Shown here: piece after piece, positions 12,997-28,631 of the stretch
Numbering within the stretch: position 1 is the first letter of the stretch
Layout: each line of letters opens with the position of its first letter
Source of the DNA: Algibacter sp.
GTDB taxonomy: Bacteria; Bacteroidota; Bacteroidia; Flavobacteriales; Flavobacteriaceae
DNA: 34,835 nt
Assembly (NCBI RefSeq): GCF_029245835.1
Contig: NZ_JAQWOO010000071.1
Coordinates: forward strand, 1-34,835
Direction of reading: 5' to 3'
Notes under the pieces: generated by a model
Told to the model about the DNA's origin: nothing
The model's input: the letters and a program-made list of their open reading frames with translations, nothing else
Database searches by the model: none
Position numbers and translations under genes: made by a program

Positions 12997-13112
12997 TTTA
13001 CTTTTTTTTTGTAAATATAAACAAATTCTATGCCTAAGTCGAATCTTTTATTTAGAATGAGTATAAATAATAAGCTAACTATATTTTCACTACTATTTAA
13101 TCTATTTATTCG

Positions 13113-13120
13113 TATTTTTG
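13113..13120 (+). promoter_or_regulatory. Putative -7 element (TATTTTTG) of the nqr operon promoter
   Basis: TATTTTTG followed by CAC lies 39 bases before the nqrA ATG and matches the TAnnTTTG consensus. No proper -33 TTTG is present at the expected distance. A long frame reaches upstream through this element but is not coding. Confidence 0.5.
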
Positions 13121-13158
13121 CACCGATTTTTAGACAACTAATTTCAATAAAAATAAAT

Positions 13159-14514
13159 ATGTCAAACGACATTCGTATTAAAAAAGGTCTGGACATTAAA
13201 CTTATTGGTGAAGCTGAAAAAACCGTTGAACAAGCGACTATCAGTAACTACTGTACCATAAGACCAGAAGATTTTCACGGCGTAATACCAAAACTTGTTG
13301 CAAAAGAAGGAACCTCAGTTAAGGCTGGAAGCACTTTATTTTATGACAAATCTCAAGAAGCGATTAAATTTTTGTCACCAGTTTCAGGGAAAATAGTTGA
13401 GGTGGTTAGAGGCCCAAAAAGACGCATTGATGCCATTAAAATTGAAGCTGATAAAACTCAAACTTTTGAAGATTTTGGAAAGTTTGATGTTGCTGCTTCA
13501 AAACCAGAAGATGTAAAAGCACATTTATTAGCTTCGGGATGTTGGCCATTTGTTAAACAACGTCCTTATGATGTGATTGCAAATCCTGAAAAGCCGCCAA
13601 AAGCGATATTTATTTCAGGATATGCTAGTGCACCATTAGCCGCCGATTTAGATTTTACCTTACAGGGAAAAGAAGCAGAATTACAAGCAGCCGTTTTAGC
13701 TTTAGGAAAGTTAACTGAAGGCGAGGTACATGTTTCTGTTGGTAAAAAATCAAATTCGCCATTATCTGGAGTGACTGGAGTAAATCTACATAAAGTTTCT
13801 GGACCACATCCATCAGGAAACGTTGGGACTCAAATAAATAAAATTAATCCAGTAAACAAAGGTGAAGTAGTTTGGACAGTTAGTCCTCAAGACTTAGTTG
13901 TTATTGGGGAATTACTTTTAACTGGAAAGTTTAATGCAGAGCGTATAGTTGCTTTAGTTGGGTCTTCTGTTGAAAAACCAAGGTATTTTAAAACACTTGC
14001 TGGTAGTGAAATAGCTACTATTGTTTTTGATAAAGGTGTTACAAAAGGTGATAAAAATCGTATCATTTCCGGTAATGTATTATCAGGAAAACAAATAGAA
14101 CCAGACGGAAGTTTAGATTACTACAGCAATGTGGTTTCTGTTATTCCAGAAGGTGATGATTATGAATTTTTTGGTTGGACTAAGCCAGTCTTTAATAAAA
14201 TATCGACTTCTAGAGCTTTAACGTTTTCATGGTTAACCCCTAAAAAAGCATTCGATTTAAATACCAATACAAACGGTGAACATCGTGCTTTTGTAACTAC
14301 AGGTACTTATGAAGAAGTCTTTCCATTAGATATTTTTCCAATGCAAATCTTAAAAGCTTGTATGTATCAAGATTTAGACGAGATGGAAGCTTTAGGAATG
14401 TACGAAGTTGCACCCGAAGATTTTGCATTAACAGAATTTGTATGCGTGTCTAAGCAACCACATCAAAAAATAATTAGAGCAGGTTTAGACTTAATGCTAA
14501 AAGAGATAGGATAA
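13159..14514 (+). CDS. nqrA: Na+-translocating NADH:quinone reductase subunit A
   Basis: A 451-residue cytoplasmic-side subunit of the six-subunit sodium pump, implicated in quinone interaction. It starts MSNDIRIKKGLDIKLIGEAE, the normal N-terminus. The frame is open 43 codons further upstream, but that extension covers the promoter and lacks family similarity, so I use the ATG at 13159. A biotinyl-lipoyl-like domain (about 30-110) and a later GPHPSGNVGTQINKI stretch are typical of the family. TAA and the nqrB ATG share one base, giving tight coupling. Confidence 0.96.
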   Translation: MSNDIRIKKGLDIKLIGEAEKTVEQATISNYCTIRPEDFHGVIPKLVAKEGTSVKAGSTLFYDKSQEAIKFLSPVSGKIVEVVRGPKRRIDAIKIEADKTQTFEDFGKFDVAASKPEDVKAHLLASGCWPFVKQRPYDVIANPEKPPKAIFISGYASAPLAADLDFTLQGKEAELQAAVLALGKLTEGEVHVSVGKKSNSPLSGVTGVNLHKVSGPHPSGNVGTQINKINPVNKGEVVWTVSPQDLVVIGELLLTGKFNAERIVALVGSSVEKPRYFKTLAGSEIATIVFDKGVTKGDKNRIISGNVLSGKQIEPDGSLDYYSNVVSVIPEGDDYEFFGWTKPVFNKISTSRALTFSWLTPKKAFDLNTNTNGEHRAFVTTGTYEEVFPLDIFPMQILKACMYQDLDEMEALGMYEVAPEDFALTEFVCVSKQPHQKIIRAGLDLMLKEIG

Positions 14515-15719
14515 TGGGTTTAAAAGAAAAATTACATAGTTTTAAGGAGAAGAATAAAAGTAAAAAATGGATACCAGCATTTAATGCACTCCATACTTTT
14601 TTATATCTACCTAATGAAACCACTCACGGTGGAACACATATAAAAGTAGCCGATGATTTAAAACGTACCATGAATACTGTAATAATGGCGTTGGTGCCTT
14701 GTTTAATATTTGGTATGTACAATGCAGGTTATCAGCATTATTTAGCATTAGGCGAAATTGAATCTGCTAATGGGTTTTTAGGAGCTTCATTTTGGACTCT
14801 AGATAATCTAATTGTAGGTTTATGGCAAGTATTGCCGCTAGTTGTTGTGTCTTATGGTGTTGGACTAGCAGTAGAATTTATATTTGCTATAATAAAAGGT
14901 CATGAAGTTGAAGAAGGGTACTTAGTTACAGGAATGTTAGTACCACTTATTGTACCTGTTGATATTCCTTTATGGATGTTAGCTGTTGCAGTAATTTTTG
15001 GTGTTGTAATTGGTAAGGAAGTTTTTGGTGGTACAGGAATGAATATTTTAAATCCAGCATTAACGATTAGAGCTTTTTTATTCTTTGCATACCCTACATG
15101 GATGTCTGGAGATAAAGTTTGGGTACATGGTGCGGTTGAACGTGCTGGTACACCAGATGCTATTTCAGGTGAAACGATATTAGGGTCTTACGCTCAAAAT
15201 AATTCTGTTGTTTACGATTATTGGGATATGTTTTGGGGATTAATTCCTGGTTCAGTTGGAGAAACTTCAAAATTCTTAATTATTATTGGTGCGCTATTTT
15301 TAATTTTTACCAAAATTGGAAGTTGGAGAATTATAGTGTCCACTTTAATAGGAGCTTTGGTAATGGGAATCATATTCAATGGTGTTGTTGATGCAGGTTG
15401 GATAGGAGAATCAAGCAAGTTTTATGGTTTAATGAATGTTCCTTTTTGGCAGCATCTTATTATTGGTAGTATCTTATTTGGAGCAGTTTATATGGCAACA
15501 GACCCTGTAACAGCTTCTCAAACAAATAAAGGAAAATGGATTTACGGATTCTTAATTGGATTTTTATCAATTATGATTCGTGTATTCAATCCAGCTTACC
15601 CCGAGGGAGTTTTCCTAGCAATACTTCTTATGAATGTATTTGCTCCAACTATTGATCATTACGTTATACAAGGTAATGTAAAGAAAAGAATGAAACGTTT
15701 AAAAGCTAAAGTTGCATAA
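14514..15719 (+). CDS. nqrB: Na+-NQR subunit B (FMN-carrying membrane subunit)
   Basis: A 401-residue polytopic membrane subunit with about ten hydrophobic segments; it carries riboflavin and a covalently bound FMN and forms part of the sodium path. The flavinylation motif is SGET at 218-221, so Thr221 is the expected FMN attachment site for ApbE. The more usual form is SGAT, so the third residue differs, but Ser and Thr are kept. Other conserved stretches are GGTGMNILNPALTIRAF (172-188) and YMATDPVTAS. It starts on the last base of the nqrA stop codon. Confidence 0.96.
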   Translation: MGLKEKLHSFKEKNKSKKWIPAFNALHTFLYLPNETTHGGTHIKVADDLKRTMNTVIMALVPCLIFGMYNAGYQHYLALGEIESANGFLGASFWTLDNLIVGLWQVLPLVVVSYGVGLAVEFIFAIIKGHEVEEGYLVTGMLVPLIVPVDIPLWMLAVAVIFGVVIGKEVFGGTGMNILNPALTIRAFLFFAYPTWMSGDKVWVHGAVERAGTPDAISGETILGSYAQNNSVVYDYWDMFWGLIPGSVGETSKFLIIIGALFLIFTKIGSWRIIVSTLIGALVMGIIFNGVVDAGWIGESSKFYGLMNVPFWQHLIIGSILFGAVYMATDPVTASQTNKGKWIYGFLIGFLSIMIRVFNPAYPEGVFLAILLMNVFAPTIDHYVIQGNVKKRMKRLKAKVA

Positions 15720-15721
15720 CG

Positions 15722-16468
15722 ATGGAAAATAAAACTGATAAAAATTCATATACCATACTATTTGCTATAGCAATGGTAGTCGTTGTAGGTTCATTATTAG
15801 CCTTTACGGCATCGTCATTAAAACCTAGAATTACAGAAAACAAACGTATGGAAAAGCAGCAGAATATCCTGTATGCTATGGGCGTAAATGAAAACGAAGG
15901 TTCAAGTAGGGAGTTTATTTCTACGGATAAAGTAGCTGGCGAATTTTCAAAATATATCAAAACACAATTAGTTGTTGATGCAAATGGCAATTCAACAGAA
16001 GATGATGAAGCTTACTTAATAGATGTTAAGAAAGAACAAGCAAAAGCAAAAAACGGAGGCACAAGACGTTTACCGTTATTTGTTGGAGAGAAAGATGGTA
16101 AGACATTTTACATAGCTCCAATTAGAGGAAAGGGACTTTGGGATGCTATTTGGGCTTATGTAGCTTTAGATAAGGATATGGTAGTGCAAGGGACATTTTT
16201 TGATCATGCAGGAGAAACACCTGGTTTAGGTGCAAACATCAACCAACGTTTCTTTATGGATGATTTTACTGGAGAACATTTATTGAGTGATACAGGAGTT
16301 TTTAAAGGTATTGCTGTTACAAAAGGTAACAATGATCCTAAAAACTTAGATAAAGTTGATCATGAAGTGGATGCTATTGCAGGTTCAACCATTACTGGAG
16401 ACGGAGTCTCAGCAATGCTTAAAGCCGATTTAAAATTGTATTTACCTTACTTTAAAAACTTAAAATAA
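15722..16468 (+). CDS. nqrC: Na+-NQR subunit C (FMN-carrying periplasmic subunit)
   Basis: A 248-residue subunit with one N-terminal transmembrane helix (about 11-31) and an FMN-binding domain on the periplasmic side. The flavinylation site is in DAIAGSTITGDGV, with Thr223 as the likely attachment point. Conserved GKGLWDAIWAYVALD (137-150) and HAGETPGLGANI (162-173) precede it. It receives an electron from the Fe-S centre of NqrD/NqrE and passes it to NqrB FMN. Only two bases separate it from nqrB. Confidence 0.96.
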   Translation: MENKTDKNSYTILFAIAMVVVVGSLLAFTASSLKPRITENKRMEKQQNILYAMGVNENEGSSREFISTDKVAGEFSKYIKTQLVVDANGNSTEDDEAYLIDVKKEQAKAKNGGTRRLPLFVGEKDGKTFYIAPIRGKGLWDAIWAYVALDKDMVVQGTFFDHAGETPGLGANINQRFFMDDFTGEHLLSDTGVFKGIAVTKGNNDPKNLDKVDHEVDAIAGSTITGDGVSAMLKADLKLYLPYFKNLK

Positions 16469-16469
16469 T

Positions 16470-17114
16470 ATGGGACTACTTTCAAAAAAAGATGCTAAGT
16501 TAATAACAGACCCGTTAACAGACAACAACCCAATTACAATTCAAGTTTTAGGTATTTGTTCCGCTTTAGCAATTACAGCAGAACTTAAAGCGTCGCTAGT
16601 AATGGGCGTTGCAGTATTGTTTGTACTAGGAATTGGTAATGTTGTAATCTCTTTAATGAGAAATATCATTCCTTCAAAAATTAGAATTATTGTACAACTC
16701 ATTGTAGTTGCTGCTTTGGTAATTATAGTAGATCAAGTATTAAAAGCTTATCAATATGAATTAAGTAAAACATTAGCAGTATTTGTAGGTTTAATTATTA
16801 CAAATTGTATCATTATGGGGCGTTTTGAAGCTTTCGCTTTAGCTAACGGTCCTTGGAAATCTTTTCTTGATGGTATTGGTAATGCTTTAGGATATGCCGT
16901 TATTCTTTTAATAGTTGGTTTTTTTAGAGAACTTTTAGGTTCGGGAACTTTATTTGGTATTCCTGTACTAGGAGATGCTATCGAGAAAACTGGTGTATAC
17001 GCTATAGGTTACGAAAATAATGGATTTATGTTAATGCCTCCAATGGCATTAATAGTTGTAGGTTTAATTATTTGGGTACAACGTAGTAGAAATAAAGCAC
17101 TAATCGAAGATTAA
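16470..17114 (+). CDS. nqrD: Na+-NQR subunit D
   Basis: A 214-residue six-helix membrane subunit homologous to NqrE and RnfE. Conserved cysteines in GICSALAIT (C30) and ITNCIIMGRFEAFA (C113) match those that, with two in NqrE, hold the intramembrane Fe-S centre between the half-channels. FFRELLGSGTLFG near 155 is a family signature. It begins one base after nqrC stops. Confidence 0.96.
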   Translation: MGLLSKKDAKLITDPLTDNNPITIQVLGICSALAITAELKASLVMGVAVLFVLGIGNVVISLMRNIIPSKIRIIVQLIVVAALVIIVDQVLKAYQYELSKTLAVFVGLIITNCIIMGRFEAFALANGPWKSFLDGIGNALGYAVILLIVGFFRELLGSGTLFGIPVLGDAIEKTGVYAIGYENNGFMLMPPMALIVVGLIIWVQRSRNKALIED

Positions 17115-17138
17115 TTAGTAAACAGTATTTAGTCTTCG

Positions 17139-17154
17139 GTAAGCAATTGCTTAC
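17139..17154. repeat. Perfect 16-bp palindrome between nqrD and nqrE
   Basis: gtaagcaattgcttac is a perfect palindrome in the 69-base nqrD-nqrE spacer, the only sizeable gap in the operon. In RNA it could fold as a 6-bp stem with an AATT loop. No T-run follows directly, so it is not a normal terminator. Confidence 0.5.
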
Positions 17155-17183
17155 TTAAGATAAAACTAAAAAAATATAAAACA

Positions 17184-17903
17184 ATGGAGCACATCGAATT
17201 ATTTTTCAAGTCAATTTTTATTGATAATATGGTGTTTTCGGTATTCTTAGGTATGTGTTCATACTTAGCCGTTTCAAAAAAAGTAGCAACAGCAGTTGGT
17301 CTTGGTGCAGCAGTAATATTTGTATTGGCAATTACAGTACCTTTAAACTGGTTGTTAGATCAGTATTTATTACAACCAGGAGCACTGTCTTGGTTAGGAG
17401 CCGAATATGCAGATTACGATTTAAGTTTTCTTTCTTTTATCATGTTTATTGCAACTATTGCAACCATGGTTCAATTAGTTGAAATAGTGGTTGAGAAATT
17501 TTCACCATCACTTTACAACTCACTTGGTATTTTCTTACCTCTTATTGCTGTAAACTGTGCTATTTTAGGAGGATCTTTATTTATGCAATCTCGTGAAATT
17601 GAAACTTTAGGTTTAGCTTTTAACTACGGAGTTTCTTCAGGAATAGGATGGTTTTTAGCCATTTTAGCTATTGCTGCTATTCGTGAAAAAATAAGATACA
17701 GTAATGTGCCGGCACCTTTAAGAGGTTTAGGTATTACGTTTATCATTACAGGATTAATGGGCATTGGTTTTTTAAGCTTTGGTGGTATGTTAACAGGTGG
17801 TGACGAAGAAGCTGAACCAACTACAGAAACAGCTATTGATGTTGAAGATTTAAAAACTGAAGAAGCTAAAGATTTAGCTAATAACACTAAAATAATTGAG
17901 TAG
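17184..17903 (+). CDS. nqrE: Na+-NQR subunit E
   Basis: A 239-residue membrane subunit paired with NqrD. Conserved cysteines are in LGMCSYLAV (C25) and IAVNCAILGG (C125), the other two ligands of the intramembrane Fe-S centre. It is about 40 residues longer than the proteobacterial protein because of an insert (about 58-80) and an acidic, Thr/Glu-rich cytoplasmic tail after residue 205 (GGDEEAEPTTETAIDVEDL). The tail function is unknown. nqrF follows one base after the stop. Confidence 0.95.
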   Translation: MEHIELFFKSIFIDNMVFSVFLGMCSYLAVSKKVATAVGLGAAVIFVLAITVPLNWLLDQYLLQPGALSWLGAEYADYDLSFLSFIMFIATIATMVQLVEIVVEKFSPSLYNSLGIFLPLIAVNCAILGGSLFMQSREIETLGLAFNYGVSSGIGWFLAILAIAAIREKIRYSNVPAPLRGLGITFIITGLMGIGFLSFGGMLTGGDEEAEPTTETAIDVEDLKTEEAKDLANNTKIIE

Positions 17904-17904
17904 T

Positions 17905-19212
17905 ATGATTTTAGCAGCAGGAACAACAGGAACAGTTATAGCAACAGTTGCAGCGTTTTTATTAATTACGCTGATACTTGTTAGCTTATTACTTTTTGTA
18001 AAACAAAAATTATCACCATCTGGTCCAGTAAAAATTACCATAAATGGTGAACGTGAAATAGAGGTAGCTTCAGGTGGTAGTTTATTATCTACTTTAGGTG
18101 CTCAAAAAATATTCTTGCCATCGGCATGTGGTGGTGGAGGAACATGTATTCAATGTGAATGTCATGTATTATCTGGTGGAGGTGAAGCTTTGCCAACTGA
18201 AACTCCACACTTTTCAAGAAAAGAATTACAACACGGAGCGCGTTTATCATGTCAAGTTAAAGTAAAGCAAGACATGGATATTACCATCCCAGAAGAAGTG
18301 TTTGGTATTAAAAAATGGGAAGCTACAGTTGTTCGTAATTATAACGTGGCATCATTTATTAAGGAGTTTGTTGTTGAAATACCAGAAGATATGGGTTACA
18401 AAGCTGGTGGATATATTCAAATTGAAATTCCACCATGTGAAGTTAAATATTCAGATATGGATATTACAGCGCATCCAGAAGAACATGATACCCCAGATAA
18501 ATTTCAAACAGAATGGGATAAATTTGGTTTATGGCCTTTAGTGATGAAGAATCCAGAAACTATAGAGCGCGCTTATTCTATGGCCTCTTATCCTGCTGAA
18601 GGACGAGAGATTATGTTAAATGTTCGTGTGGCTTGTCCACCATGGGATCGCGCTAAAAACGGTTGGATGGATGTTAATCCTGGTATTGCATCGTCTTATA
18701 TCTTTAATCAAAAACCAGGAGATAAAGTAACGATTTCAGGACCTTACGGTGAATTCTTTATAAATGAATCTGAATCTGAAATGTTGTATGTTGGTGGTGG
18801 TGCTGGTATGGCTCCAATGCGTTCACATTTATATCACTTATTTAGAACTTTAAAAACGGGTAGAAAAGTTACTTATTGGTATGGAGGACGTTCTAAACGT
18901 GAGTTATTCTACTTAGATCATTTTTATAAATTAGAAAAAGATTTCCCTAATTTTAAGTTCTACTTAGCATTATCTGAACCAATGGAAGAAGATAATTGGA
19001 AAGTAAAAGAAGATATTGATGCTCCTGGAGATGGATTTGTTGGTTTTATTCACAACTGTGTTATAGATAATTATTTAAGCAAGCACGAATCACCTGAAGA
19101 TATAGAATTATATTTCTGTGGACCACCATTAATGAATCAAGCGGTTCAAAAAATGGGTGAAGATTTTGGGATTCCAGATGAGCACATCAGATTTGATGAC
19201 TTTGGAGGATAG
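17905..19212 (+). CDS. nqrF: Na+-NQR subunit F (NADH-oxidising flavoprotein)
   Basis: A 435-residue electron-entry subunit. It has one N-terminal transmembrane helix (about 8-32), a 2Fe-2S ferredoxin domain with C75, C81, C84 and C116 (CGGGGTCIQC...SC), then an FAD domain with the RAYSMASYP motif (222-230) and an NADH domain with YVGGGAGMAPMRSH and a C-terminal YFCGPPLMNQAV. I chose the ATG at 17905; the frame also has a TTG at 17896, inside nqrE. It is the last gene of the operon, followed by a strong bidirectional terminator. Confidence 0.96.
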   Translation: MILAAGTTGTVIATVAAFLLITLILVSLLLFVKQKLSPSGPVKITINGEREIEVASGGSLLSTLGAQKIFLPSACGGGGTCIQCECHVLSGGGEALPTETPHFSRKELQHGARLSCQVKVKQDMDITIPEEVFGIKKWEATVVRNYNVASFIKEFVVEIPEDMGYKAGGYIQIEIPPCEVKYSDMDITAHPEEHDTPDKFQTEWDKFGLWPLVMKNPETIERAYSMASYPAEGREIMLNVRVACPPWDRAKNGWMDVNPGIASSYIFNQKPGDKVTISGPYGEFFINESESEMLYVGGGAGMAPMRSHLYHLFRTLKTGRKVTYWYGGRSKRELFYLDHFYKLEKDFPNFKFYLALSEPMEEDNWKVKEDIDAPGDGFVGFIHNCVIDNYLSKHESPEDIELYFCGPPLMNQAVQKMGEDFGIPDEHIRFDDFGG

Positions 19213-20030: not shown

Positions 20031-21974
20031 ATGAAACGAATTTTATTATTTACAATGTGTTTTACATTCACATTTGCAACTCTCAATGCTCAAGAAGAGA
20101 TTGATTATAACCAAGTTGTGTTTACTGGACAAGCGGGAGATTTTGGTGGGGATCCAAGTGCTTGGGAAGATCCTGAAAACTGGCGAAGAGGAGGAGATCC
20201 ATCATTGCCAGGAATTCCTGAAGAAGGTGATGATATATTAATTGAGGGGTTTTACGTTTATTTTAATGGTCTTGGAGGAGTTCCTCCGCAAGACTATGGA
20301 AGTTTAGAGTTGAGATTTGGAGCTCAATTAACTACTCAAGGAGACTTCTATCTTTATGGAGATTTTACTGTAGATTCATCAAGTACTTTTGAAGTTATTG
20401 TTCAAGATTATGATTTATTTAATAAAGTAACTTGCGAAGGGAATTTTTATTTTACAGGTAATGTGCAGCTGTCTTTCTCAGGTTATGCACCTCAAATTGG
20501 AGATGCTTTTCAAGTAATTGAAGGCTACCAAGGCGCTTGTCCTTCTCCTGCATCTTTCCTGAATTCTAGTTTTGACTTTGATACTATATTAACCGCTCAA
20601 TGCGAAGCTGACGGTTTATACTATGAAGTATTGGATATCAATTACTCTTCATCCATTGCATGGGATGGTGAGGGTAATGATGGTATGTGGGATAATCCAG
20701 CTAACTGGGATCCTAATGGTATTCCATCTGCAGATTCAAGAGTTGTTATTAACATGCCTGGAGGAGATTTTGTTTCTACCAACGGTGCAGGCGTAACTGC
20801 TGTTGCAAATATTATTTTAGGAGTCGATAGTACTTTAGAAATAAATGGTGATTTACTAATTGATAAATATATTTATGTAAAGAAAGGCGCAACATTATCA
20901 TGGAGAAATGGAAAAATATATAGTAACGATACTAACGATCAATCTGGAATATCAAGTTATGGGTATATAAATCTTGATGGACCCGGAACTAAAACATTGG
21001 ATACAGATATGTATTTATGGACATTTTTTGAAGACATCAATCATAATCAAGGTGATTTAAACATAAATAATGGCATAGTTAGAGTATTTAATTTTAATAG
21101 TTATAATATTAACGGCGATAATATTACTATTGGATATAATAGTGGTGACCTTCACGAGATGACAATTAGCGTTATTAGTGGGCTTAAAAAAACAATAGGA
21201 AGTGGTACATCTTCTATTAACCTGACAACATTTATAAATTATGGAGATGTCATTAGTGAATCAGGAACCTTAGCATTTAATGAAGATTTAACTACGGGAG
21301 CATTTTTAGATTGGATTGGGACTTACAGGGGTAGTGGAAGTATTCAGTTTCCTAGTAATTTTGTTTTAGATGGTGTAATTGCTCCGGGTAGTTCTCCTGG
21401 TATTTTAACTGTTGTGGGAGATTTTGTAGCATCTGCTTCTGCTACTTTTGATATCGAGATTGATGGTCCAAATTTAGGAACTCAATACGACCACGTTTTG
21501 GTTACAGAAAATGCCACCCTAGAAGGTGAGATTAATGTTACTTTGGGTTACCTGCCAGCAAACGACGCTAGTTTTGAAATTATAACATCTACTGAAATTT
21601 TTACTTGTGATCTTCCTTCACAAGTCACTGCAATTTATAATGGTACACCTTATACATTTGATGTTGTTTGCGCCGGTAATTCGGTGTTTTTAAACGGACC
21701 AGGTTTTGCGCTTTCTAACACTGATAAAATTTTGGATGACATGGCCATTTTTCCAAACCCAGTAAAAAATATTTTAAATGTAAAATCTAGTTTAATAACA
21801 CAAGGGCATTGGCAAATATTAAATCCATTAGGACAAGTTGTTAAAGCATCTGAATTTAAAGGTGATGAATTAAAGATTATGGTTAATGAAATACCAACAG
21901 GTCTTTATTTTTTAAAGTTAAAAGATGATAATTTAAATGCTACAACAACCAAAAGAATAGTTATTTCAAATTAG
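20031..21974 (+). CDS. Large secreted beta-rich surface protein with type IX sorting domain
   Basis: A 647-residue exported protein: signal peptide MKRILLFTMCFTFTFATLNAQ, a long beta-strand-rich body, and a type A T9SS sorting domain in the last ~80 residues (MAIFPNPVKNILNVKSS, ILNPLGQVVK, IPTGLYFLKL). The body contains two units of the pattern W-x(4-5)-NW...P...D-x-V/I-x-I: AWEDPENWRRG...GDDILIEG near 43 and MWDNPANWDPNGIPSADSRVVI near 220. These precede a region resembling passenger/beta-helix domains, ending in IAPGSSPGILTVVGDF. It is probably an adhesin or cell-surface structural protein. No catalytic motif is visible. Confidence 0.8.
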   Translation: MKRILLFTMCFTFTFATLNAQEEIDYNQVVFTGQAGDFGGDPSAWEDPENWRRGGDPSLPGIPEEGDDILIEGFYVYFNGLGGVPPQDYGSLELRFGAQLTTQGDFYLYGDFTVDSSSTFEVIVQDYDLFNKVTCEGNFYFTGNVQLSFSGYAPQIGDAFQVIEGYQGACPSPASFLNSSFDFDTILTAQCEADGLYYEVLDINYSSSIAWDGEGNDGMWDNPANWDPNGIPSADSRVVINMPGGDFVSTNGAGVTAVANIILGVDSTLEINGDLLIDKYIYVKKGATLSWRNGKIYSNDTNDQSGISSYGYINLDGPGTKTLDTDMYLWTFFEDINHNQGDLNINNGIVRVFNFNSYNINGDNITIGYNSGDLHEMTISVISGLKKTIGSGTSSINLTTFINYGDVISESGTLAFNEDLTTGAFLDWIGTYRGSGSIQFPSNFVLDGVIAPGSSPGILTVVGDFVASASATFDIEIDGPNLGTQYDHVLVTENATLEGEINVTLGYLPANDASFEIITSTEIFTCDLPSQVTAIYNGTPYTFDVVCAGNSVFLNGPGFALSNTDKILDDMAIFPNPVKNILNVKSSLITQGHWQILNPLGQVVKASEFKGDELKIMVNEIPTGLYFLKLKDDNLNATTTKRIVISN

Positions 21975-21995
21975 AATTTAGTTAATTAAAAGGGG

Positions 21996-22025
21996 AGAGC
22001 TGCTAGAAATAGTAGCTCTTTTTTT
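21996..22025 (+). terminator. Terminator of the surface protein gene
   Basis: Arms agagctgct (21996-22004) and agtagctct (22011-22019) pair with one G-U, followed by a T-run at 22019-22025. It lies 22 bases after the stop and touches the end of the convergent CHAT reading frame. Confidence 0.75.
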
Positions 22026-22305
22026 AATTTCGGCGCGTTTTAACAATAAATACTGTTGCAAGTATAACTACTATAGCACTTAATAAATACCATAGAAAGT
22101 TTGATGGTGTTTTTAAATCAATTGATGTAGTGTCTCCTATAAGTACTAAACCAGCCCAATAGTGAGGTGCAATTGTTCTACCTTCTGCATTAGATAGATA
22201 TTTTAGTTTAGCTTGTTTTAATGCTTCGTTTTTTGGGAGCCCTTTTTTTATATTATCATAAAATAGTTTGATTATTTTAGAACTTGACTGTTCATCAATT
22301 TTTCA
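22024..22305 (-). pseudogene. Detached 3' end of the CHAT gene after an in-frame TGA
   Basis: The minus-strand frame of the CHAT gene continues after TGA at 22303-22305 for 92 more sense codons, to TAA at 22024-22026, with no other lesion. It encodes KIDEQSSSKIIKLFYDNIKK, GLPKNEALKQAKLKYLSN, PHYWAGLVLIGDT and a terminal hydrophobic helix (FLWYLLSAIVVILATVFIV) followed by KTRRN. Family members read SLW-K-x-D here, so the TGA replaces a conserved TGG Trp by one base change. The restored protein would be 1076 residues with a C-terminal membrane anchor. Confidence 0.85.
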
Positions 22306-25254
22306 AAGACTCGTTAAAATGCTCTCACTTCCAGCATAATTAAAAGCGTGTGCTAAAGAGATCATACCTTCTCCTGATTGGTAAGTAGGTTTTCCAGTTT
22401 CGCAGGCAGTTAATATAGCTAAATTAGAATTTAAACTCTGGTTGTAAATTTCATAAGTGTATAATGAATTGTCTTCATCTGAGTTATTTTTAGCAAAAAT
22501 TAAACGCGATAATTCTGGTGTGATGTTGTTAGATTCTGCGTGTGTTCCAATATGTATAATTTTATGCTCATTAGCTTCATTTGTAAATATTTGTTTGGAA
22601 GCTTTTTCATTTATAAAGAAAGAACCGTTAAACAACCTAGAGTATTCCTTTGCTAAATCTACACTAAACGGTTGTGGAAGTAGACTTAGGTAGGTCTTAT
22701 CAATGGAAAGAGAATCTTTTATTGCAACACTGTAATCCTGTTTCATTTTATCGTTAAACTCTGGTGCAAAGGCTATGAAGTCTTTTTGATAATTTATGAT
22801 TTTCTCCGATTTATCTAATAATAGTAAACTGTAATTGTATGAAATAGTATGTTTTGAGAGTAGACTATTAGTCGCTAAGGTTGTAAATGAATTTATTTTT
22901 GAAGGCGTTAAACTTTCAAAACTTAAATTAAATAATACGCCATCAGGTATAATAATGACCTGATCTGTATTGACTGCTTTTTCAAAAGGTTGCCATAATA
23001 CTTGGTATAGCTCGTGCAATCTATTGCTTGTAGATTTTAAGTCCGATTGATTTTCTAATAGTTGAGAAATAGTTTCTTTAATATGGCCGCTATTTAATTT
23101 AAACAGTTGCTTTTTATTTTTGTTTATTAGGGTAGCATAAAGTATATCATCAATAAATACATAACGAATTAGTGTGGTGTTTTTAGGTGTTTTTTTATGA
23201 ATACTATCCAAAGGAACTTCAATAGTTGCATATCTCATTTTATAATACTTTGGATATATTTGTTTTATAGAATCTATAAAAAAATTCCAATTAGAACTCG
23301 CTTGAGAGAATGATTTTAAGCCATCGGTTATATTATTTATAGAAGCATTAAGATTGTTTTTTAAAGTATTCTCTCTTTTTAAAATAGTTTTTGGAATGCC
23401 TGAAAAACCAATACTATTTTTTAAATTAAAACGTGAACGAATACGATTATAAATGCTCGATTCATGAATGCTTAATAATTTATTTAAGTACAATTCATTA
23501 TTTGTTTTGTGATATAAATCTAAAAGTAATTGCTTTGAGAAACTAAATAATTCGCTGTTTTCAGTTATTAGTAAGTTTAAATCTTCGTAGGAATTTACAA
23601 TAGCTTTACGTTGCTCTAGTATATCAAGACTTGTTTTTGTTTGGTCTAGTAAATTAACTAAAAATGCTTCAGATTTATCGGTATGTAATTCATATTTAGA
23701 CTTTGCGTTAATTAATAATACTTTAGGTTTTCTGTATTGAATTTGTATAGAATCTTTAAAATTTTCTGTTTTTTTACCTATATTATCTGAAAAACGAATA
23801 GCTTCTTTACTATATAGTATAGCCTGTTCATAATCCTTTAATTTGTAGTGTACTTCGCTTAAATTAACAACATGATGGAACTCTTGAATGGTAGATTTAA
23901 AGTCACTACTTTTTATGAAATCATAAGATTCTTCTGCTAAAGAAACGGCTTTTGGTGCAATATTATGTGATGCATAAAATTGCGACATATTTATAATAAC
24001 ATCTAACAAATCTCTATCGTAGTTATTATTTCCTAAAGATTTTTTAAATAGGGAGTAAGCTTTATCATAATTAATACTAGCACTTTCAATTTGTCCTAAT
24101 TCATTACTAATAATTGCTTTTGTAGATAAAGCACTTGCATGCCAATAAAGTTGTGTGTTTTTACTATTATTAATTCTTTCTAGAGCATGATCTATAAGTT
24201 TTTTAGCAGCTTTAAAATCTCTAAGACCAATTTTTGCTTGTGCACAAATAATAGGTGATATGGTTAAGTTAATATCTTCTGGAGCTAAATTTTGAATTTT
24301 TTTGTTGTAAGCGTAAGTAACTAGTTTATCTGCTCTTTCGAATTCTCCAACAGAGTGATAAAAGACTCCCAGATTATCTATAGCAGCTAGTTGATGTTTT
24401 AGCGCTCTTAGTTTTCTAGATTCATCTTTTGAATGATCTAAGTATTTTTGAAAACCCTCGATAACTTCTTTCGAAGATTCAATAGCTAAGTCTATTTTTC
24501 CTAAACTTTGATTTAGTACAGCAATATTAAGATTAACTAAAGCTTTTCTATAATATTTATTAATAGGAGTTTGCTCAGTACTGTCTAATATTTTTAAAGC
24601 TTTGTTGAAGTAGAATACACTACTGTCTAAATGTGAGGTATGCCACATCATGCCACCTAATGCATTGTAAGTTTGGTGTAAAGATTCATAATCTTCTTCA
24701 TTTGCACCTTCCATGATTGTTGTGGCTTTTAAATAATTTTTTTTTGCAGAAGCATAATTACCAAGGTTTGCAGACAAATAGCCCAGGTTATGATAGATAG
24801 TATTAAAACCAGCTTTTTTAGAGTCTTTAATTGTTTTAGCAACTTCAAGAGCTTTTTCTACAATTTCGTGAGATTTTTTAGTATAACCTGCATCATCATA
24901 AATCCAAGATAGTTCTAATAATGCTTCTTTATTTACAAAAGGGTCTTTGTAGAGCTCTAATTCTTTACTAAAAGCTTCTGCTTTTTTTATTGCCAAATCA
25001 TGATTGTTATTGGCTAGTTTTAAACTGCCTACCAGGAAGATATATTTTATTAAGCTATCTGTGTTTTTTTGATTACGGTAAAAATCTAAATGTGTTTTTA
25101 ATTCTTTTTTAGCTTTTTTTAAAGAGTCATTTTTTACTAAATTTTGAATATAAGAAATACTAGAAATAGAATCATTCTGCGCTTGAAATTCAAATCCAAA
25201 AAACAACACAAAGATTAAAATTGTTTTTTTTATAAATGATGAATTCTTAATCAT
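22303..25254 (-). CDS. TPR-CHAT caspase-like protein, truncated by a nonsense codon
   Basis: A 983-residue product as read. It has a signal peptide (to about residue 25, ending FEFQAQ), many TPR units from about 40 to 520, a helical linker and a C-terminal CHAT domain, the clan CD caspase/separase-like protease fold. The catalytic dyad is present: His905 in IIHIGTHAES and Cys951 in ILTACETGKP. The chain stops at SILTSL, inside the CHAT domain, at TGA; the remaining frame is intact (see 22024-22305). The CHAT domain would therefore lie outside the cytoplasm, and the full form would be tethered by a C-terminal helix. It is 12 bases downstream of the membrane TPR gene and in one operon with the sigma factor. 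Whether the truncated form is active is unknown. Confidence 0.85.
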   Translation of the reverse strand: MIKNSSFIKKTILIFVLFFGFEFQAQNDSISSISYIQNLVKNDSLKKAKKELKTHLDFYRNQKNTDSLIKYIFLVGSLKLANNNHDLAIKKAEAFSKELELYKDPFVNKEALLELSWIYDDAGYTKKSHEIVEKALEVAKTIKDSKKAGFNTIYHNLGYLSANLGNYASAKKNYLKATTIMEGANEEDYESLHQTYNALGGMMWHTSHLDSSVFYFNKALKILDSTEQTPINKYYRKALVNLNIAVLNQSLGKIDLAIESSKEVIEGFQKYLDHSKDESRKLRALKHQLAAIDNLGVFYHSVGEFERADKLVTYAYNKKIQNLAPEDINLTISPIICAQAKIGLRDFKAAKKLIDHALERINNSKNTQLYWHASALSTKAIISNELGQIESASINYDKAYSLFKKSLGNNNYDRDLLDVIINMSQFYASHNIAPKAVSLAEESYDFIKSSDFKSTIQEFHHVVNLSEVHYKLKDYEQAILYSKEAIRFSDNIGKKTENFKDSIQIQYRKPKVLLINAKSKYELHTDKSEAFLVNLLDQTKTSLDILEQRKAIVNSYEDLNLLITENSELFSFSKQLLLDLYHKTNNELYLNKLLSIHESSIYNRIRSRFNLKNSIGFSGIPKTILKRENTLKNNLNASINNITDGLKSFSQASSNWNFFIDSIKQIYPKYYKMRYATIEVPLDSIHKKTPKNTTLIRYVFIDDILYATLINKNKKQLFKLNSGHIKETISQLLENQSDLKSTSNRLHELYQVLWQPFEKAVNTDQVIIIPDGVLFNLSFESLTPSKINSFTTLATNSLLSKHTISYNYSLLLLDKSEKIINYQKDFIAFAPEFNDKMKQDYSVAIKDSLSIDKTYLSLLPQPFSVDLAKEYSRLFNGSFFINEKASKQIFTNEANEHKIIHIGTHAESNNITPELSRLIFAKNNSDEDNSLYTYEIYNQSLNSNLAILTACETGKPTYQSGEGMISLAHAFNYAGSESILTSL

Positions 25255-25266
25255 TCAATTAAAGAT

Positions 25267-26007
25267 TTATTTTGTCAGTTTAGAAATAAGAGCTTTACTA
25301 GTCTCAGTATTACTAATATCTAGATTTTTTTTAGCAAGTTCTGTATTACCTTCCTTCAAATAGGCTAAGCCTAAGTATAAATAAGCATCATCTAAAAAGG
25401 TGAAATTGTCTTCTGCTTCAATAGAGCGTTCTAAATAAGGGATTGCATCACTTACATTTTTATTGGCTAAATGAGCCACACCTAAAAAATAATTTAGGGT
25501 ATCATTATTAGGTTTTTTTTCTTGTAGCACTTTCCATTTATCAATAGCCATTTGATAGTCGCCATGCTTGTAATTCACCATAGCATCATAAAAGTCAAAA
25601 TTATCTGTACGACTCATGGTTGTTGGTAATCCTGGGTCTAGTTTAAAATATTCCGTATAAAGTTTCTCGTTTTTGGGTATACTAAAAAACCAGATACTGC
25701 CAAAAGCAATAATAATAGCTGCCGCTACTGCTATTTTATTCCAATTTAAATATCTAACTTTTATGTCAGTAGATTTTGAAACTATTGTTTTAGGAATATC
25801 TGTATGAAATTCATTTAACTGTTCTTTTAAGGATTGTGCTTCAATACCTATAAGCATCGTTTTTATATCTTCAACTTTAAGTTTAAAATCATCATCAAGT
25901 TCAAGAAGTTGATTGAAATCTTTCAATTCTTGAGAGGTCATAGAACCATTTATATAACGTTCTATAATTTCTAATAATTCTTCTGATATGTCACTATTAT
26001 CTTTCAA
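25267..26007 (-). CDS. Single-pass membrane TPR protein, anti-sigma-like
   Basis: A 246-residue protein. A cytoplasmic N-terminal helical region (1-85) has the pattern IERYINGSMTSQELKDF...LLELDDDF, which resembles the N-terminus of Bacteroidota anti-sigma/FecR-type regulators. One transmembrane helix follows (about 90-109, KIAVAAAIIIAFGSIWFFSI), then periplasmic TPR-like helices (about 140-240, for example YLYLGLAYLKEGNTELAKKN). It sits between the ECF sigma factor (7 bases upstream) and the CHAT gene (12 bases downstream), so an anti-sigma or signal-relay role is a reasonable inference. There is no zinc-finger motif. Confidence 0.75.
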   Translation of the reverse strand: MKDNSDISEELLEIIERYINGSMTSQELKDFNQLLELDDDFKLKVEDIKTMLIGIEAQSLKEQLNEFHTDIPKTIVSKSTDIKVRYLNWNKIAVAAAIIIAFGSIWFFSIPKNEKLYTEYFKLDPGLPTTMSRTDNFDFYDAMVNYKHGDYQMAIDKWKVLQEKKPNNDTLNYFLGVAHLANKNVSDAIPYLERSIEAEDNFTFLDDAYLYLGLAYLKEGNTELAKKNLDISNTETSKALISKLTK

Positions 26008-26014
26008 TCTTTAA

Positions 26015-26587
26015 TCATTTTGAGGCTAAAACCATAGCGCGTAATTTTTTCATACATCTGTACTTTTTATTGCGGGCTGTAGATTCTTCTATGTTTAATT
26101 CTGATGCAATGTCTTTTAAAGATTTTTTATCAAAATAAAAGGTGCTTAATAATTGTTTGCATGGTTGTCCTAAATGTTTAAAAACATCCATTACTTTTTT
26201 TAATTTATTGTTGGTTAAATTTTCGTCTTCATTTTGCTCTTCATTTTTAAAGAACATTAAGGATTCATAATTTAATGTTTTGGTTTTTTTGAAGTTGTTA
26301 GATCTTAATACATCAAGCCATTTGTTTTTTGCTATTTTATACAAATATCCTTGTAAAGCGGTATTGTTTTTTGGCGTGAATTTATCATTTTTTATATGTC
26401 TCCAAACCGTAATAAACGCCTCTTGATAGATATCTTTTGCATGCTCTACAGAACCACTATTTTTAAGAACTAAAACTTCTATTTTTTTATAATTTGTTGT
26501 GTAAAAATGTTTTAAAACATCTGATTCGTTAGATTTTATAGCATAAACGAGTTCTGACTGACTTAATAAATGTAATTGCTTCCCCAT
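26015..26587 (-). CDS. ECF-type RNA polymerase sigma-70 factor
   Basis: A 190-residue sigma factor with only regions 2 and 4. Region 2 includes AKDIYQEAFITVWRHI (50-65) and YLYKIAKNKWLDVLRS (81-96). Region 4 has the helix-turn-helix KSLKDIASELNIEESTARNK (155-174), followed by KYRCMKKLR. It is the first gene of a three-gene minus-strand operon with the membrane TPR and CHAT proteins, and probably controls that operon and further targets. It ends with TGA, which shows TGA is a normal stop in this genome. The upstream spacer has near matches but no exact TAnnTTTG box. Confidence 0.9.
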   Translation of the reverse strand: MGKQLHLLSQSELVYAIKSNESDVLKHFYTTNYKKIEVLVLKNSGSVEHAKDIYQEAFITVWRHIKNDKFTPKNNTALQGYLYKIAKNKWLDVLRSNNFKKTKTLNYESLMFFKNEEQNEDENLTNNKLKKVMDVFKHLGQPCKQLLSTFYFDKKSLKDIASELNIEESTARNKKYRCMKKLRAMVLASK

Positions 26588-27656: not shown

Positions 27657-28631
27657 ATGCGAAATTTATTAGTTATATATATAATTTGTGTTTTTTTTTC
27701 TTGTAAAGAAGAACAAAAAAACACAAAACTTACTGGAACTGCTTTTGGTACCAGTTATTCTATTATTTACGATTCTGATGTTAATTACGAAACTCAGTTT
27801 GATAGTTTATTTTATGTGATTAATAAATCCATGTCCACCTATCAAATAAATTCTGATATTTCAAAATTGAATAGAAATGAATCTTTTGAAATTGATGAAC
27901 ATTTTATAAAAGTTTATGATGCATCTAAAGAAGTTTTCGGAAAAACAGAAGGTGCTTTTGATCCATCAATTGGAAATGTAGTTAATGCATGGAAATTTGG
28001 TGCAGAAAACACTATTGAGGTTATTGATAGTTTAAAAATTGATAGTCTAATGCAATATGTTGGTTATGATAAAACCTATAGACTTAATAACACTATAATA
28101 AAATCTAACCCTAATGTTTATATAGAGTTTAATGCTATAGCTAAAGGTTATGGTGTAGATGTCGTTGGAGAATTTCTTGAATCTCAAAATATAAATAATT
28201 ATTTAGTTGAAATTGGAGGAGAAATACGAGTAAAGGGTATCAATTTTGAAAAACAAAGCCAATGGAAAGTAGGTTTAGAGGAACCAAACTTTGACGGCGG
28301 ACAATCAATTTTAAAGGCTATTGTTTTGAATGATGAAGCTATGGCAACTTCAGGCACTTATAGAAAATTTAAAATTGACGAAAACGGAAATAGATATGCG
28401 CATATCATTGATACAGAAACAGGATATCCAAGTAAAACCAATTTGTTAAGTATATCAGTAATTGCTGAAGATTGTATGACTGCCGATGCATATGCTACAG
28501 CTTTCAAAGCTATGGGTATTGAGAAAGTTAAAAAATTTTTGGAGTTGCACCCAGAACTAAAGGTTTTTTTGATTTTTGAAAATCAAGATAAAGAAATCCA
28601 AACCTTAGCATTAAATGGATTTCCAGAATAA
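27657..28631 (+). CDS. apbE: FAD:protein FMN transferase, lipoprotein
   Basis: A 324-residue Mg-dependent flavin transferase that attaches FMN from FAD to Thr in S-G-x-T-like sites, here presumably Thr221 of NqrB and Thr223 of NqrC encoded 11-13 kb upstream. It has a lipoprotein signal (lipid Cys16 in VFFSC), MSTY (59-62), GAFDPSIGNVVNAW (99-112), IAKGYGVDVV (161-170), EIGGEIRVKG (185-194), ATSGTYR (230-236), the HIIDTETGYP motif (249-258) and MTADAYATAF (274-283) containing metal-binding residues. Length is normal. It is coupled to the small gene upstream. Confidence 0.95.
   Translation: MRNLLVIYIICVFFSCKEEQKNTKLTGTAFGTSYSIIYDSDVNYETQFDSLFYVINKSMSTYQINSDISKLNRNESFEIDEHFIKVYDASKEVFGKTEGAFDPSIGNVVNAWKFGAENTIEVIDSLKIDSLMQYVGYDKTYRLNNTIIKSNPNVYIEFNAIAKGYGVDVVGEFLESQNINNYLVEIGGEIRVKGINFEKQSQWKVGLEEPNFDGGQSILKAIVLNDEAMATSGTYRKFKIDENGNRYAHIIDTETGYPSKTNLLSISVIAEDCMTADAYATAFKAMGIEKVKKFLELHPELKVFLIFENQDKEIQTLALNGFPE

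Follow-up and report, generated by a model that had tools for sequence, protein, structure and literature searches.

What has happened to a large protease-like gene that stops inside one of its own domains, and what would be lost along with it? The question is raised by a 34,835-nucleotide stretch of a draft genome of Algibacter sp. (hereafter the window; contig NZ_JAQWOO010000071.1 of assembly GCF_029245835.1), in which a TPR-CHAT protease-like open reading frame (ORF) of 983 residues (22303..25254, minus strand; PF12770, E=4e-24; TPR_12, E=1.4e-21) ends at a premature TGA. We consider it likely that a single recent nonsense change truncated this gene, almost certainly destroying its function. 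Taken alone, the lesion is an ordinary young loss of function and, as in other nonsense pseudogenes, consists of one premature stop, absent from the orthologues, in a frame that is otherwise intact. What distinguishes the case from an ordinary nonsense pseudogene is the operon to which the gene belongs and the repeated loss at this one locus, rather than the lesion itself.

A premature stop inside the CHAT domain

The frame (25254..22303) runs through the residues SILTSL directly into the TGA, which occupies the position of residue 984 (22303..22305, minus strand), and beyond it stays open for 92 codons (22027..22302) up to the original stop of the frame, a TAA at 22024..22026. This arrangement, described in the original prediction, was confirmed, as was its statement that family members carry tryptophan at the stop position. 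We aligned 34 orthologue loci, of which one is decayed and two share the same sequence, leaving 32 distinct intact orthologues; all 32 have tryptophan here, as do the gene fragments found in two further genomes (G007 and G161). The aligned orthologues do not end at the stop of the window but form open frames of 1074-1103 residues.

As predicted, the end of the CHAT domain lies in the tail beyond the stop, along with a C-terminal transmembrane helix; the share of the domain that is cut off is its final fifth. PF12770 matches at profile positions 4-230 before the stop and at positions 233-289 after it (E=1.7e-8), and the frame scores 142 bits when scanned across the stop; the profile is covered by this read-across frame and not by the 983-residue product alone. 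The stop thus falls inside the CHAT domain and does more than remove an anchor. The claim that the tail and membrane anchor were lost stands for both elements, and the CHAT fold itself is cut. With the tail go 16 columns that are invariant in all 32 orthologues, together with the helix (22042..22098, minus strand), whose hydropathy over a 19-residue window reaches 2.68; by the same measure, every one of the 32 orthologues exceeds 1.6 at its C-terminus.

The predicted catalytic dyad is retained. Its residues, His905 (22540..22542, minus strand) and Cys951 (22402..22404, minus strand), the latter 33 residues ahead of the stop, are both invariant in 32/32 orthologues; His905 was preferred to His901 by analogy with the H615-x-E617 arrangement described for the TPR-CHAT protease Csx29 (PMC10028731). 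In the account of that protein, the substrate pocket includes Y706, W720 and A723, and D661, near the catalytic cysteine, is contacted by R744; Y706, W720, A723 and R744 lie 48-86 positions past the cysteine (PMC10028731). Judged by spacing only, the truncated CHAT domain, which ends 33 residues past its own cysteine, would fall short of this Csx29-like pocket region.

We found no ATG, GTG or TTG codon in the frame of the tail, which rules out the tail as a separate downstream gene. A terminator scan of the region 21900-22400 returned a single match, on the plus strand at 22223-22240. The genome containing the window (3.36 Mb in 100 contigs, 97% complete) has one copy of the TPR-CHAT gene and, besides it, no CHAT gene. 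Of the named relatives found, Algibacter marinivivus is the nearest, at 80% identity, and one of the compared genomes (G002) apparently represents it.

Age of the lesion

To what extent an open run behind a stop is expected by chance was measured on 354,835 bases of the window genome, about a tenth of the total, which hold 177 ORFs of at least 250 residues. Open in-frame runs of at least 60 codons follow 17 of these ORFs. For 16 of them, the next gene has a fitting start codon 0-6 codons past the stop; the TPR-CHAT gene has the sole run without a start codon, which indicates that its tail is not a product of chance. A read-across query against 397 genomes, a sample of the family, gave 47 matches of at least 600 bits, 45 of them without an internal stop; the two interrupted ones are the window itself and the frameshifted gene of G007. 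In the comparison stretch of A. marinivivus, all 22 other matched genes are uninterrupted, three antisense ORFs having been set aside.

The gene has otherwise been kept in good order. Against A. marinivivus, the ratio of nonsynonymous to synonymous substitution rates over the TPR-CHAT frame is 0.11, with 0.03-0.19 in the other 16 genes measured. None of the 25 tail columns that are at least 90% conserved among relatives has changed in the window, and there is no second lesion. We simulated neutral evolution of the tail under assumed base frequencies, setting the branch length at 0.55 substitutions per site, half the synonymous distance; by 8% of the branch, the chance that no further stop had arisen and that every conserved column was unchanged had fallen to 5%. 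By simulation, the stop is young because the tail is undecayed: it dates to at most about the last 8% of the branch since A. marinivivus, provided that no selection has acted on the tail in the meantime. The inactivation had been suggested to be very recent, and the 25 of 25 conserved columns kept, the single lesion and the orthologues that run past the stop bear this out. Pulling the other way, the tail has 12 lineage-specific changes in the window and 6 in A. marinivivus, with 54 and 48, respectively, elsewhere, a difference that is not significant (p=0.32).

A decay of the whole operon in the window lineage was considered and rejected, as relative-rate counts were mixed and gave no firm acceleration. 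By outgroup, the counts for the window and A. marinivivus were 22 v 8, 22 v 14, 13 v 11 and 12 v 13 in the sigma factor gene, and 22 v 13, 21 v 23, 19 v 10 and 18 v 23 in the anti-sigma gene, both described below.

The sigma, anti-sigma-like and TPR-CHAT operon

The TPR-CHAT gene is the third of three genes read in one direction, following an extracytoplasmic function (ECF) sigma factor gene (26015..26587, minus strand; Sigma70_r2, E=4.1e-11; TIGR02937, E=5.7e-22) and a gene for an anti-sigma-like membrane protein (25267..26007, minus strand). Both upstream frames are intact in the window. The three genes occur together at 31 of 35 loci; the four exceptions comprise one locus at a contig end, two with the anti-sigma gene elsewhere (genomes of one genus) and one remnant. 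In the window and the relatives examined, the operon lies between nqrF and apbE, the fetched stretches of G009 and G355 stopping short of nqrF and apbE, respectively.

The second protein has the architecture of a membrane anti-sigma factor: encoded directly after an ECF sigma factor, it has a cytoplasmic, helical N-terminal domain, one transmembrane helix at about residue 92 (25678..25734, minus strand; hydropathy 2.41) and periplasmic TPRs. A structural model placed helices at residues 10-71, the transmembrane segment at 90-109 and TPRs at 138-246, with a mean predicted local distance difference test score (pLDDT) of 66 that is low over residues 57-111. Among 26 family members, 16 matched the anti-sigma model NF047528 and 9 matched NF052375 at E<=0.01, the window protein itself scoring 18.2 bits against NF047528, for which the cut-off is 200. 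Gene order, topology and these model matches together point to a role as inhibitor of the sigma factor.

Around the operon, Na+-translocating NADH:quinone reductase (nqr) genes occupy 13030-19212 and apbE lies beyond the operon at 27657-28631. A gene for a large protein sorted by the type IX secretion system (20031-21974) is convergent with the CHAT gene and stands beside the operon in G002, G006 and G009 too. We also considered the locus as a defence system and rejected this reading, PADLOC having given only weak matches (a TPR model, E=0.0011; a CARF model, 0.0065).

A candidate cleavage site in the anti-sigma-like protein

Just past its transmembrane helix, the anti-sigma-like protein carries the motif DPGLPTTM followed by serine or glycine; in the window, DPGLPTTM-S (25612..25638, minus strand, with the methionine at 25615-25617) is a proposed site of recognition or cleavage by the CHAT protease. 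We compared 49 anti-sigma genes (34 plus 15 more) from 47 genomes with a CHAT gene with nine from genomes that have no CHAT gene or only a fragment. The set took in all anti-sigma matches of at least 240 bits and those of the genus, with one sequence containing a run of N dropped; the 49 include the window and G007, whose CHAT genes are broken, and G024, whose CHAT gene is cut by a contig end. Methionine is present in 49/49 sequences with CHAT versus 1/9 without, and methionine followed by serine or glycine in 49/49 versus 0/9. Measured on the 34-gene set, conservation across the nine averages 4.7 for the seven motif columns and 7.7 for 34 other conserved columns (Mann-Whitney p=0.0006), and the methionine is the least kept column of all. 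A genome with its CHAT gene elsewhere (G262) keeps the motif, and two that score higher against the anti-sigma profile (G008 and G001) do not; in G262 the sigma and anti-sigma genes (L137:3561-4869) lie away from the CHAT gene, with the motif intact. On the tree, the nine genomes without CHAT or with a fragment appear to represent about six losses. Because the motif tracks the presence of the CHAT gene in this way (49/49 versus 0/9), we infer that the Met-Ser/Gly bond is probably where the protease cuts.

A second family of 22 loci with more distant modules (L164-L183, L138 and L139) offers a comparison. Its CHAT gene, where present, is oriented opposite to the sigma and anti-sigma genes; at one locus (L177), the fetched stretch contains none. 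In the corresponding loop of the anti-sigma protein, 21 of the 22 have arginine followed by glycine or serine, L179 being without the arginine. Alignments differ on this arginine, one setting it on the methionine column and another two residues further on, and we measured the distance to the first conserved TPR tyrosine on ungapped sequences. The spacing is 15 residues in 48 of the 49 Met-type sequences and 16 in one; of the 20 Arg-type sequences measurable by the pattern (two of 22 were not), 16 show 15 residues, three show 16 and one shows 14. This ungapped spacing supports the equivalence of the two sites, and such a match is what one expects of a putative scissile bond. On the side of the protease, the CHAT column at window residue 867 is glutamate in 20/20 Arg-type proteins and leucine, valine or isoleucine in 32/32 Met-type ones. 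An acidic pocket at this position, accounting for a difference in specificity, is suggestive only, with six further columns that differ in other ways.

On balance, we lean towards cleavage of the anti-sigma protein by CHAT as the mechanism. The most substantial alternative is that the operon is real and CHAT does not cut the anti-sigma protein, DPGLPTTM serving instead as a docking site for some other partner lost together with CHAT; it concerns the mechanism, not the loss of function, and we hold it to be a serious possibility, if the less probable one. It gains from the fact that columns outside the motif are also poorly kept without CHAT (V145 in 2/9; H69, A96 and K148 in 4/9 each). Against docking stand the methionine, as the most strongly lost column (1/9), the exchange of Met-Ser/Gly for Arg-Gly/Ser at matching spacing in the second family, and the precedent of Csx29 and its substrate Csx30.

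Repeated loss of the CHAT gene in relatives

The window is one of several places where the CHAT gene has broken or gone. Only three of ten Algibacter genomes have it intact (G002, G006 and G009). In the window and in G007, the latter with two frameshifts, the CHAT gene is broken beside sigma and anti-sigma genes that remain; G001, G003 and G008 have the anti-sigma gene alone; and G004 and G005 lack all three genes at the place between nqrF and apbE. Outside the genus, a CHAT remnant and a split sigma gene are left in G355, G129 and G045 have sigma and anti-sigma at the locus without CHAT there, and G183, G057 and G140 again have anti-sigma alone. For the three Algibacter genomes among the nine of the motif comparison, CHAT absence rests on a search at E<=0.001. 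The fragment in G161 (L041:8338-8985) consists of the last 214 CHAT codons only, with the frame intact and the tryptophan present, beside apbE; neither sigma nor anti-sigma was found in that stretch.

In a tree of four proteins from 18 genomes, G007 groups with G009 and G355 with G346 (support 1.0 each), and the window stands beside G004 (support 0.80). The tree thus sets broken cases beside intact ones, and on this ground the CHAT losses would be largely independent, assuming no transfer, with that of the window the mildest. The pattern suggests an order of decay in which the protease goes early and the cut site and sigma factor follow. In the lone anti-sigma genes (L158, L159, L161, L133, L134 and L135), the TPR part is conserved and the juxtamembrane motif has decayed. 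Either their sigma factor lies elsewhere in the genome or the protein may have a second role, as a pure anti-sigma role leaves the persistence of these genes unexplained.

Alternative explanations of the stop

The best surviving alternative to a real lesion is an intact gene in which a fault of sequencing or assembly has produced the TGA; we regard it as improbable. A single base would account for everything, the rest of the gene is undamaged and the genome is a 100-contig draft. Yet no similar interruption follows any other of the 177 large ORFs in the tenth of the genome surveyed, and none occurs among the 22 genes matched to A. marinivivus. Independent damage to this gene, or its absence, in several relatives also makes a real loss more credible beforehand and an error less likely.

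A switch from an anchored to a soluble form, one of the options first put forward, drew its appeal from the His-Cys dyad, which sits before the stop and is retained. A functional truncated protein is nevertheless very hard to reconcile with the data: besides the anchor, the stop takes CHAT positions 233-289 and the 16 invariant columns, the C-terminal helix is kept in 32/32 orthologues, and among the 47 family matches the only ones interrupted are the window and the frameshifted G007.

Least probable of all is programmed readthrough or recoding, with UGA read as tryptophan (or selenocysteine) to give a minor full-length form, an option that found no support because the stop occurs in 0/32 aligned orthologues and tRNA-Trp is ordinary. 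The single tRNA-Trp has a CCA anticodon and, in the drawn fold, a 5-bp anticodon stem; UGA reading is reportedly favoured by 4-pair stems (PMC13092985). The 37 tRNA hits in the window genome represent 34 distinct tRNAs, none with a UCA anticodon, and no tRNA-Sec scored above the cut-off (six matches fell below it). TGA is an ordinary stop here, ending 9 of the 177 large ORFs, the TPR-CHAT frame included. The stop creates a CUU-UGA sequence (22303-22308) that resembles the prfB frameshift site; a prfB-like frameshift was rejected and would bring no rescue, the +1 frame closing after 10 codons and the -1 frame after 3. What speaks for recoding is the intact tail, the fact that tryptophan would be the normal residue at the position, and the UGA-A sequence, a context in which UGA is misread by tRNA-Trp in Escherichia coli (PMC5289835). 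Because of this context, a slight leak is plausible, in which tRNA-Trp would insert the normal residue and leave traces of full-length protein.

Proposed mechanism and relation to known systems

With a real and recent loss of the CHAT gene as the preferred reading, we propose the following for intact relatives. The TPR-CHAT protein would be exported, with its C-terminal helix holding it in the inner membrane, and would cut the membrane anti-sigma protein a short way beyond the bilayer, at the Met-Ser/Gly of DPGLPTTM(S/G) or beside it; further processing of the anti-sigma protein would then free the ECF sigma factor. In the window strain, truncation has cost the product about 57 residues of the CHAT fold as well as the anchor; the anti-sigma protein would therefore stay uncut and the sigma regulon off, so that the switch is probably stuck in the off state. 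More generally, we are inclined to see in flavobacteria a CRISPR-independent, envelope version of the Craspase logic, in which an exported, membrane-anchored TPR-CHAT protein may act as site-1 protease on a single dipeptide (Met-Ser/Gly or Arg-Gly/Ser) some 20 residues from the membrane on its outer side, and in which the protease arm is repeatedly lost, the cut site then decays and the rest of the anti-sigma protein is largely kept.

Several points weigh against this proposal. Its basis is sequence analysis. The motif comparison is uncorrected for phylogeny, and for the other six of the nine genomes CHAT absence was judged from a search at E<=1e-50 supplemented by a local one; G045, moreover, has two more distant CHAT genes elsewhere. 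Six genomes (G001, G003, G008, G183, G057 and G140) have a full-length anti-sigma protein with no recognisable sigma or CHAT gene at the locus. The N-terminal hydrophobic segment of the TPR-CHAT protein is weak as a signal peptide by hydropathy (1.48 in the window protein, above 1.6 in 15/32 orthologues). AlphaFold modelled the CHAT half of the A. marinivivus protein poorly from three rows (pLDDT 43), and none of the solved structures reached by profile search had a significant E-value. For the Scalindua system, cleavage of Csx30 is cited as falling after L407 and not after methionine (PMC9729208), which implies that methionine is no general rule.

The closest parallel is the Craspase/CASP module (Csx29, Csx30 and the CASP-sigma factor RpoE). 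Csx29 cuts Csx30, an inhibitor of an ECF sigma factor (PMC10028731), the cut falling between residues 427 and 429 and deletion of M427 blocking it (PMC10028731). In both systems a TPR-CHAT protein, a sigma inhibitor and an ECF sigma factor are encoded together, here at the 31 of 35 loci noted above. In Craspase the protease cuts the inhibitor and relieves the block on sigma (PMC10028731, PMC9729208), as is proposed here. They differ in that the inhibitor here is a membrane protein with a proposed cut that is extracytoplasmic, and in that the protease has an N-terminal hydrophobic segment and its orthologues a C-terminal membrane helix. A sequence relation to Csx29 was not found in a profile search of solved chains at E<=10, in which the CHAT profile (21 rows) matched 8rot, a CHAT domain-containing protein (E=0.34), and citrate synthase, and no Csx29 entry. 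No cas family was found among the 24 window genes scanned with Pfam, and the whole genome, at its 97% completeness, has no match to the RAMP family (PF03787), which leaves no sign of a type III CRISPR system. A cas1 gene is present on another contig of the window genome (L200; G000 contig C94, 47873-48562).

DegS is a serine protease, and both DegS and PrsW cut anti-sigma factors in regulated proteolysis. The locus resembles the DegS-RseA and PrsW-RsiW pairs in having a membrane anti-sigma protein with a periplasmic part, encoded next to an ECF sigma factor, and a proposed first cut just outside the membrane; it differs in its proposed site-1 protease, a caspase-like CHAT protein whose gene is part of the operon. 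ECF54 sigma factors, too, are encoded near CHAT-domain proteins (PMC8999054). The control described for them is one without an anti-sigma factor (PMC8999054), whereas here an anti-sigma-like membrane gene lies between the two. ECF sigma, TPR and caspase genes co-occur in other bacterial systems as well (PMC8195603). In our search for literature on CHAT proteins with ECF sigma factors, made mostly outside subscription journals, the results listed included Csx29 papers and one on CalpL, and among them was nothing on a sigma/anti-sigma/TPR-CHAT operon. The association of CHAT with ECF sigma factors is thus already known; the anti-sigma protein, the membrane topology and the predicted bond were not found in the literature searched.

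To our knowledge, few CHAT proteins have a known substrate. Here a CHAT substrate and the bond to be cut can both be specified beforehand, for testing in a marine bacterium. The operon is widespread, and its sigma factor is probably activated when a caspase-like protease cuts the inhibitor in the membrane. If this is true, the operon is likely a non-CRISPR setting for the Csx29-Csx30-sigma arrangement, and the window genome, which retains an intact site, would represent the first step of the loss, as a natural knock-out.

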